This document shows positions 52,529-54,832 of a stretch of 61,774 bases of DNA, one piece after another. Both the position numbers and the translations under genes were made by a program. Under the pieces are notes generated by a model that saw only the letters and a list, made by a program, of their open reading frames with translations, was not told the DNA's origin and did no database searches. Within the stretch, counting starts at the first letter, position 1. Each line of letters begins with the position of its first letter. Source of the stretch: Actinomycetota bacterium (GTDB taxonomy: Bacteria; Actinomycetota; Actinomycetes; Nanopelagicales; Nanopelagicaceae); assembly GCA_016870715.1 (NCBI GenBank), contig VGAL01000005.1, positions 1-61,774 of the forward strand, in the 5' to 3' direction.

Positions 52529-53185
52529 GTGCGTAGGTTCTTCTCTCACTCGATTCCATATACCCCCTGGCGTGCGAGCCATCAGTGGCAACTTTCTCCT
52601 TCTCGATCTCTGATCTTGACCATTGGACTCGTTATTTTCGGAATCGGTGATGGACTTTTGATCGTCAGCCACCTAGGCAATGCTCCGTGGAGCGTTCTGG
52701 CTCAAGGTCTTTCACTTCGTTTGGGAATTGCGATTGGTTGGGCAACCTTTCTTGTCTCTACCGCAGTCTTACTTCTCTGGATTCCTTTCAAACAACGTCC
52801 AGGAGTAGGAACAGTGGCCAACATTCTCGTCATCGCGATAGCAATTGATCTCACCGTTGCCTGGACCCCGGTCCCTGCCAATCTCGGGCTGCGAATTGCG
52901 CTGGTACTCCTGGGTATCGCGCTCGTTGGTGGAGGTTCAGCGCTCTATCTCACCTGTGGTTTAGGACCGGGGCCCCGGGATGGGCTCATGACTGCAATTC
53001 ACTACTCCAGCGGATTCTCGGTGGCGCGGGTTCGAGCATCGATCGAGGGGTCGGTGCTGGCTCTGGGGTGGCTCCTGGGAGGGCGAGTGGGGTTCGGCAC
53101 TCTCGCCTTTGCGCTGGGTATAGGCGCCTCGATTGCCCTCTGGTTAACCCTGTTAGGACACCTGATCAGAAATACTCCCCAGTAA
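52529..53185 (+). CDS. YczE/YitT-like membrane protein
   Basis: 218 residues with five to six hydrophobic helices. ILTIGLVIFGIGDGLLIVSHLGNAPWSVLAQGLS and GLGPGPRDGLMTAI are typical of the YczE/YyaS/YitT family of unknown membrane proteins. The GTG start is predicted leaderless. It ends 115 nt before the NCS2 permease gene. Confidence 0.8.
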   Translation: MRRFFSHSIPYTPWRASHQWQLSPSRSLILTIGLVIFGIGDGLLIVSHLGNAPWSVLAQGLSLRLGIAIGWATFLVSTAVLLLWIPFKQRPGVGTVANILVIAIAIDLTVAWTPVPANLGLRIALVLLGIALVGGGSALYLTCGLGPGPRDGLMTAIHYSSGFSVARVRASIEGSVLALGWLLGGRVGFGTLAFALGIGASIALWLTLLGHLIRNTPQ

Positions 53186-53300
53186 CTGAAAATTGGCTGA
53201 GCCTGGGGGTAGGTTGAAGGCCTTCCCTCGGTATTCACGAGCCGTCATTTCGTGGCGGGGTCGTAAACACCCCCGAAACCAAAATAGTTGAGAGGGATAC
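53186..53300 (+). promoter_or_regulatory. Structured leader of the NCS2 permease gene (candidate riboswitch)
   Basis: This gap is long for this genome. Helices I can draw by hand: GGGGGT (53205-53210) with ACCCCC (53269-53274); CACGA (53236-53240) with TCGTG (53250-53254); and, excluding the first, GGGG (53257-53260) with CCCC (53271-53274). CCCTC (53225-53229) can cover the ribosome binding site GAGGG (53292-53296). Choice between helices could expose or hide the start site. I do not match it to a known riboswitch class. Confidence 0.45.
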
Positions 53301-54776
53301 ATGCTCGAATCGTTATTCAAGATATCCGAACGGAAATCCTCTGTTGGCCAAGAGATTCGAGGTGGGTTAGTCACATTCTTCACGATGGCATACATCGTGG
53401 CGCTGAACCCCTTGATTCTGGCGACAACAGATGGTGCCGGTCAGTTCATTGGTGGCGGGGATCGAACCAACGCCATCATCATCGTCGCCGCGGGCACCGC
53501 ACTCATCGCTGGTCTCTTGACCATCCTCATGGGCGCAGTTGCCAACTTCCCATTAGCTCTTGCTACTGGTCTAGGTCTCAACACCTTTGTGGCGGTTTCC
53601 ATTGCCAAGAATTCAACCTGGGCGCAAGCGATGGGTTTGGTTCTCATAGAAGGCATAGTGATTTTGATTCTGGTTCTCACCGGTTTCCGCGTCGCGGTCT
53701 TCAAAGCGATTCCCACGCCATTGAAGGTGGCAATCTCTGTCGGTATTGGTCTTTTCATCGCACTGATCGGACTTGTCGATAGCGGCTTCGTACGTCGTAC
53801 GCCAAACGTTGTCTGGGGAAGCGCTAATTCTAAACCTTCGGCAGTGCCGCTCGAGCTCGGCGATGGTGGTCAACTCGTAGGTTGGCCAATCGTGGTCTTC
53901 GCGCTCGGACTTTTCCTCACCATCATTCTGATGGTCCGCAAAGTTAAGGGTGCAATCCTTATTGGAATCGTCGTTTCCACAATACTTGCAATCATCCTTG
54001 AGAGTGCATTCAAGATTGGAAATAGTTTCGTTAGCCCAACAGAATCCAACCCACGTGGATGGGGCCTTAATACTCCAATCATCCCTGATAACCTCGTAGC
54101 AACTCCGCGCTTTGACACGCTCGGACTTGGTTTCGAAGATATCTTCGGAGCGTTCACCAATCCCAAGACCGGTTTCCTTGCCGCTCTTCTCTTAGTCTTC
54201 ACCCTTCTCTTGGCTGACTTCTTCGACACCATGGGAACGATGACAGCTATCGGAAACCAAGCAGGACTCACTGATTCAGAGGGCAACGTTCAGAGCGCTA
54301 ACAAGATTCTTATCGTTGACTCTATTGCTGCCGCAGCAGGTGGCGCAGCCGGAATCTCATCAAACACTTCGTATATCGAATCAGCATCAGGTGTTGGTGA
54401 AGGTGCGCGAACTGGTTTGGCTTCGGTTGTCACTGGTATTTGCTTCCTCCTCACCACTTTCCTTGCTCCATTGGTAGCGGTGATTCCCTACGAGGCTGCA
54501 ACTCCAGCACTTTTGGTCGTTGGATTCCTCATGATGGCGCAAGTTAAGGCAATCGATTGGCAGGATCTAGGAATAGGTATTCCTGCCTTCTTAACAATCA
54601 TCTTAATGCCATTCTCCTACAACATCTCTGTAGGTATTGGAGCTGGCTTCGTCTCTCACGTAGTTATTCGTGCGGTACAAGGTCGTAGCAAAGATGTTCA
54701 TCCATTGCTCTGGGTCACCTCTCTGCTCTTCATGATCTACTTCCTCAGCTCTCCGATTCGTTCGTGGATTGGCTAG
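53301..54776 (+). CDS. NCS2-family nucleobase permease (AzgA type)
   Basis: 491 residues with about 12-14 membrane segments. It imports a purine (adenine, guanine, hypoxanthine) or a related base with protons. The start GGLVTFFTMAYIVALNP, the ATGLGLNTFVA motif and DFFDTMGTMTAIGNQAGL are typical of the AzgA/PbuG group. A ribosome binding site GAGAGGG precedes the ATG. The leader is a candidate regulatory RNA, and apt 5 kb upstream could use the imported base. Confidence 0.9.
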   Translation: MLESLFKISERKSSVGQEIRGGLVTFFTMAYIVALNPLILATTDGAGQFIGGGDRTNAIIIVAAGTALIAGLLTILMGAVANFPLALATGLGLNTFVAVSIAKNSTWAQAMGLVLIEGIVILILVLTGFRVAVFKAIPTPLKVAISVGIGLFIALIGLVDSGFVRRTPNVVWGSANSKPSAVPLELGDGGQLVGWPIVVFALGLFLTIILMVRKVKGAILIGIVVSTILAIILESAFKIGNSFVSPTESNPRGWGLNTPIIPDNLVATPRFDTLGLGFEDIFGAFTNPKTGFLAALLLVFTLLLADFFDTMGTMTAIGNQAGLTDSEGNVQSANKILIVDSIAAAAGGAAGISSNTSYIESASGVGEGARTGLASVVTGICFLLTTFLAPLVAVIPYEAATPALLVVGFLMMAQVKAIDWQDLGIGIPAFLTIILMPFSYNISVGIGAGFVSHVVIRAVQGRSKDVHPLLWVTSLLFMIYFLSSPIRSWIG

Positions 54777-54788
54777 CTAAATAATCGC

Positions 54789-54832
54789 AAAAATCCCCAG
54801 TGTCACCGCAAAGGTGGCACCGGGGATTTTTT
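54789..54832. terminator. Bidirectional intrinsic terminator
   Basis: A long stem: AAAAATCCCC (54789-54798) pairs with GGGGATTTTT, with inner arms CACC/GGTG and loop GCAAA. Runs of A and T on the outer ends make it work for both strands. It serves the NCS2 gene and the convergent ung, whose stop codon (54831-54833) is at its edge. Confidence 0.9.

Follow-up and report, generated by a model that had tools for sequence, protein, structure and literature searches.

A candidate translational riboswitch on a preQ1 class-I scaffold in the leaders of purine-type permease genes of Nanopelagicaceae

Results

The window (the whole stretch of DNA that was analyzed, 61,774 nucleotides in length) comes from a 1.41-Mb genome whose closest named relatives are acI / Candidatus Nanopelagicaceae / Planktophila MAGs. 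The acI / Nanopelagicaceae are very abundant lake bacteria. On the forward strand, the 115-nt gap at 53186-53300 to which an earlier note had drawn attention is indeed a leader, lying between a YczE-like gene (52529-53185) and an NCS2 gene (53301-54776). It begins right after the stop codon of the upstream gene, which encodes a YczE-type membrane protein (NF052291). The downstream gene encodes an NCS2 permease (PF00860) of the AzgA (adenine/guanine/hypoxanthine) subfamily, and among its relatives, structures have been solved only for the adenine/guanine permeases AZG1 and AZG2 (PDB; E = 1e-49). Just 3' of the permease gene, at 54793-54830, an inverted repeat rich in G/C leads into a run of T (CCCCAGTGTCACC...GGTGGCACCGGGG, TTTTTT), which by eye is probably a terminator and was not called by a pattern scan.

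We collected orthologous leaders and obtained 70 distinct ones with a common motif that extends to the ribosome binding site. The leader is a genuine structured RNA. It contains three covarying helices, arranged as a 5' H-type pseudoknot of two helices (PK and H2) that abuts a hairpin, P1, with an A-rich tail. Specifically, a pyrimidine element, CUUCCCU (53222-53228), which is conserved in A1, precedes the 5' strand of PK (CGGU, 53229-53232); this strand pairs with GCCG (53241-53244) in the loop of H2, and H2 is formed by CACGA (53236-53240) and UCGUG (53250-53254). P1 consists of CGGGG (53256-53260) and CCCCG (53271-53275) enclosing the loop UCGUAAACAC (53261-53270). The tail AAACCAAAAUAG (53276-53287) leads to the Shine-Dalgarno (SD) region GAGAGGG (53290-53296), the putative expression platform, located 5-11 nt before the ATG at 53301. 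By automatic parse, the elements run CUUCCC, a CGGY strand, H2 (UGUGA-like) with an RCCG in its loop pairing to CGGY, the abutting P1 (CGGGG/CCCCG) with its loop UCGNAANCAC, a tail of the form CAAAA-Y-(N)-AG, and the SD. The earlier note had drawn H2 and the G-run/C-run helix by hand, and both covary across relatives; it had missed the pseudoknot, the conserved loop, and the tail.

Covariation across the leaders was pronounced. In a MAFFT alignment, double-sided changes occurred in 12 of 14 pairs, and the covariation score was 0.294 compared with 0.135 for shuffled alignments (0 of 500 shuffles as good) and at most 0.108 for slid controls. The combined PK and H2 parse beat all 40 dinucleotide shuffles in 55 of 69 leaders, with a mean score of 20.9 versus 5.1. 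Variants of P1 include CGGGG/CCCCG, ACAUG/CAUGU, CGGUG/CACCG, CGAGG/CCUCG, CGGAG/CUCCG, CCGGG/CCCGG, and CGCUG/CAGCG, whereas its closing G-C pair is retained in 64 of 65 leaders. Variants of PK include CGGC/GCCG, AAGGC/GCCUU, AGGGC/GCCCU, CUGG/CCAG, and UGGCU/AGCCA. The motif is conserved, and covaries, across at least 12 genera. Folding of the single leader sequence gave no signal relative to shuffles (z = -0.5 and -0.08), because the structure consists of pseudoknots.

The 5' end of the transcript is expected near 53221-53224, set by a -10-like box. This box, TAGGTT (53210-53215), is a probable promoter element: a TANNNT box stands at the matching distance in 62 of 68 leaders compared with 28% of shuffled ones, and a pattern scan called no consensus sigma-70 site at 53210-53215. 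The strand GGGGGT (53205-53210), which the earlier note had placed in competition with the P1 G-run for a single C-run, overlaps the conserved box and is therefore probably untranscribed; with the start near 53222, it would lie outside the RNA. Its G-run is also lost even within the genus (L085). Thus, of the two mutually exclusive helices that had been proposed, one falls in the promoter. The suggested pairing of CCCTC with GAGGG at the ribosome binding site is possible in this leader and in those of close relatives, yet own pairs were no better than pairs drawn between sequences: in 68 leaders, 445 of 500 between-sequence permutations did as well or better. Pairing of CUUCCC with the ribosome binding site was likewise rejected for lack of covariation, and a generic anti-Shine-Dalgarno role of the pyrimidine element is possible.

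Rfam contains no family that matches the leader at its gathering score, in agreement with the claim that no known class was recognizable, yet the RNA is clearly built on a preQ1 class-I core. In the window there is a weak match to PreQ1 (RF00522) of 16.1 bits. In a blind run of the PreQ1 model on 101 family genomes, this leader accounted for 23 of the 24 best matches, with E values down to 2.5e-5; the best scored 33.6 bits, and the gathering cut-off of 39 was reached in 0 of the 101. The alignment to the model is in register except for two single-nucleotide deletions. Using the class-I contact residues and type-I structure numbering of PMC11625349, we found that the alpha-site ligand contacts G5 (G53260, the pocket floor), U6 (U53261), C17 (the specificity cytosine, C53270), and A30 (A53283, which would read the minor groove) are present and invariant or nearly so, as are C8, G9, A11, and A12. 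The columns for U6 and for the C just before the P1 3' strand are invariant, and the tail has three invariant A columns that align to the PreQ1 model, including the minor-groove-reading A. Hairpin P1 and its tail make up a preQ1 class-I core. Of the type-I beta-site residues, two (U7 and C31) have been deleted or replaced and the third, U16, is an A; with them the second ligand site of that type has been lost, and the pocket is predicted to be one site with a type I-like ceiling. An AC precedes the P1 3' strand, which is the type II/III signature. P2, formed by the loop with the tail or SD, has only short, partly noncanonical pairs, and loop position 9 varies among C, U, and A.

Some leaders depart from this arrangement. 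By parse, the PK and H2 domain is absent from six, two of which (L030 and L103) retain it with one mismatch. Four (L043, L048, L094, and L096) have a C/U-rich leader in place of the pseudoknot and H2, with CUUCCC directly before P1 and an intact preQ1-like core. Another four (L044, L051, L057, and L095) carry an additional hairpin, about AUCCC...GGGAU, between the aptamer tail and the SD. One MAG holds a degenerate copy (L038:2416-2504) in which the pocket-floor pair G5-C16 is U/U, C7 is U, and A11 is G; it represents either decay or a further ligand variant.

The whole-motif covariance model matched in 168 of 201 family genomes, including 91 of the 99 of high quality, and usually as a single copy; these genomes are kin and not independent, and many loci are duplicated between two genome collections. 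The final model, R2, superseded R1, whose automatically derived structure held just 8 pairs, and E values from the custom models are rough. A core model run over 395 genomes of the class matched in 39, all within the family of the window. Most copies precede an AzgA-type NCS2 permease gene. Others, in genus g8 and one g4 genome, precede a gene for an unrelated NCS1 permease (PF02133; loci L133-L135, L175, L176, L180, L181, L184, and L185), and one genome (G036) has two NCS1-linked copies and no NCS2 gene that we could find. The motif was not found in the NCS1 leaders of g7, g11, and g14. The permeases themselves differ: at residues 34 and 95, motif-bearing permeases depart from their motif-lacking relatives in the TM1 and TM3 motifs. 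Following the TM3 GLGLN, motif-bearing permeases have T (S in one case) where nearly all others have A, and a V in TM1 is replaced by A in most motif-bearing permeases and not in motif-lacking relatives. These changes hint at an altered substrate and are confounded with ancestry.

As to queuosine (Q) metabolism, TGT was found in 178 of 201 family genomes. QueA was not found in the family genomes, and there was no convincing match to QueC; the matches to QueC were weak, short, and inside longer frames, and we took them as other enzymes. The queuosine-salvage hydrolase (PF10343) occurs in three family genomes. YhhQ, the known importer, is absent from most genera of the family, and it adjoins tgt at L112 and L113. 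With TGT present, QueA and a convincing QueC missing, and YhhQ mostly missing, the Q base must be imported, and an importer is needed. YhhQ was rejected as the sole Q transporter, being missing in most genera, although other genera have both YhhQ and the motif. The motif is also present in genera whose YhhQ gene adjoins tgt, and the TGT-bearing genera g6, g7, and g11 are without it. Because TGT is nearly universal in the family, co-occurrence does not discriminate among ligands, and its presence was rejected as a ligand test. Nor does the base-recognition loop of TGT decide the substrate. Family TGTs (L112, L113, L114, L115, and L187), from genomes without QueA, carry GGA(I/L/V)DK, which departs from both the preQ1-type GGLAVGE and the queuine-type GG[LS][AS]G (PMC11570991), so the loop was set aside as a guide.

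Discussion

Our analysis supports the proposal of a regulatory RNA on a purine-type importer gene; the comparison of orthologous leaders, covariation, and Rfam for which the earlier note had called was positive. We would class the leader as a new variant that builds on the preQ1-I scaffold; its control would be translational and OFF. With type I (RF00522; Carnobacterium antarcticum structure) it shares a G-C-floored P1, the loop core CGNAANC, the specificity C, an A-rich tail with the SD directly 3', and possibly the ceiling triple C-A-U. It differs from type I in the loss of the beta-site, in one further loop position that is missing or replaced, in its extra 5' pseudoknot, in its association with AzgA and NCS1 permease genes, and in scoring below the Rfam cut-off. 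With type II (Thermoanaerobacter tengcongensis) it shares a 10-nt loop that starts UCG, an AC preceding the 3' strand of P1, a single site for ligand, and an SD within or adjoining P2. It differs in its ceiling, where A with U or C takes the place of G11-C30, in its weak P2, and in the additional 5' pseudoknot domain. That pseudoknot is an addition to the scaffold, with no counterpart in the preQ1-I types described in the literature examined. The preQ1-III riboswitch resembles the leader in being of the preQ1 class and in containing more than one pseudoknot element, but it has an HLout fold and gave no match at the leader in the Rfam scan. We found no published description of this RNA in a search of the open literature; the acI genome paper scanned for thiamine, FMN, and cobalamin riboswitches only (PMC5301498).

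The translational riboswitch suggested earlier is thus a plausible reading, and we put at about 0.55 the probability of its fuller form: a translational riboswitch on the preQ1-I scaffold that most likely responds to a salvaged 7-deazaguanine, either preQ1 or queuine, which the AzgA-type or NCS1 permease would import. Its basis is the structure, the covariation, the homology to the preQ1-I core, the conservation of the pocket, and the gene association, and from these we infer the ligand, its binding, the OFF direction, and the transported substrate. The transcript would begin just before CUUCCC, and the 5' H-type pseudoknot would stack on P1. A single ligand may rest on the floor of P1, the G5-C16 pair, and form a Watson-Crick pair with C53270 while U53261 and A53283 read its edge. 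Binding would dock the A-rich tail on the P1 loop and draw in the adjacent SD, such that plentiful ligand lowers translation of the permease. The tail runs into the SD (AGGAAGG, AGGAG), which lies 3 nt further on in the genus of the window. Concealment of the SD by ligand-stabilized docking of the tail would follow the same logic as in class-I translational preQ1 switches. Against this reading stand the Rfam score below the cut-off, the A in place of the type-II ceiling G11, the weak P2 pairing, the plain nucleobases that AzgA and NCS1 permeases usually transport, the motif-bearing genera in which YhhQ adjoins tgt, and the TGT-bearing genera that lack the motif.

What the ligand might be is suggested by the genes that the RNA precedes. 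The occurrence of one RNA before two unrelated nucleobase transporter families points to a nucleobase-like ligand. Since a preQ1-like RNA also stands before a second, unrelated importer, the ligand of the leader is probably queuine, preQ1, or guanine, with uptake switched off in response. Among these, a 7-deazaguanine is favored, not strongly, because the genomes keep TGT without QueA and QueC, and guanine is the main rival. Queuine is the finished Q base, an N-substituted preQ1. Compounds of this kind still bind class-I aptamers, about 50-fold more weakly (PMC8494917), so queuine is conceivable. That the scaffold has changed its ligand, to queuine or guanine, and that a purine-type permease has been recruited as its importer is a tentative reading to which we give a little less than an even chance.

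It is also possible, though we hold it to be less likely, that the same fold and mechanism serve guanine (or hypoxanthine), the preQ1-I scaffold having been retuned to a plain purine for feedback on purine uptake. The guanine riboswitch controls pbuG in Firmicutes, and the logic would be the same if the leader gives feedback on a nucleobase permease; that riboswitch is a three-way-junction aptamer with an unrelated fold, and the purine riboswitch junction had no Rfam match at the leader even at E = 10. Both regulated permeases belong to purine/cytosine importer families, the swap to NCS1 is consistent with purine transport, and no Q gene was seen with the motif. Furthermore, the specificity cytosine would pair guanine equally well, and the change of G11 to A and loss of the beta-site amount to a remodeled pocket. 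Against guanine, the motif-bearing permease is altered at its TM1 and TM3 motifs, and the pocket-floor G5, which in solved class-I structures contacts the 7-aminomethyl group (PMC11625349), persists in 64 of 65 leaders while P1 drifts elsewhere.

The remaining explanations do without a small molecule. One is a structured leader that acts through a protein or a ribosome standby site, or as an RNA thermometer, which could accommodate the loss of the PK and H2 domain in some lineages (L043, L048, L094, and L096). Yet the invariant unpaired nucleotides of loop and tail correspond to the nucleotides that touch the ligand in a riboswitch class of solved structure, and the RNA is common to two unrelated transporter families, which make regulation of this sort improbable. 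Least credible by far is chance complementarity in a promoter region with no functional RNA at all: the single-sequence fold is no better than shuffles, but conservation across the genera argues against chance, and covariation has already refuted it.

Taken together, the 7-deazaguanine reading suggests a route by which streamlined cells obtain the Q base. It would also present a two-ligand RNA pocket that has been reduced to a single site and has gained a new domain of structure. Either queuine or guanine, if true, would be a new ligand for the preQ1-I scaffold. If the ligand is guanine, the leader would add a new example of a very small scaffold that has switched ligands; if it is queuine, these lake bacteria would offer a handle on queuine sensing by RNA.
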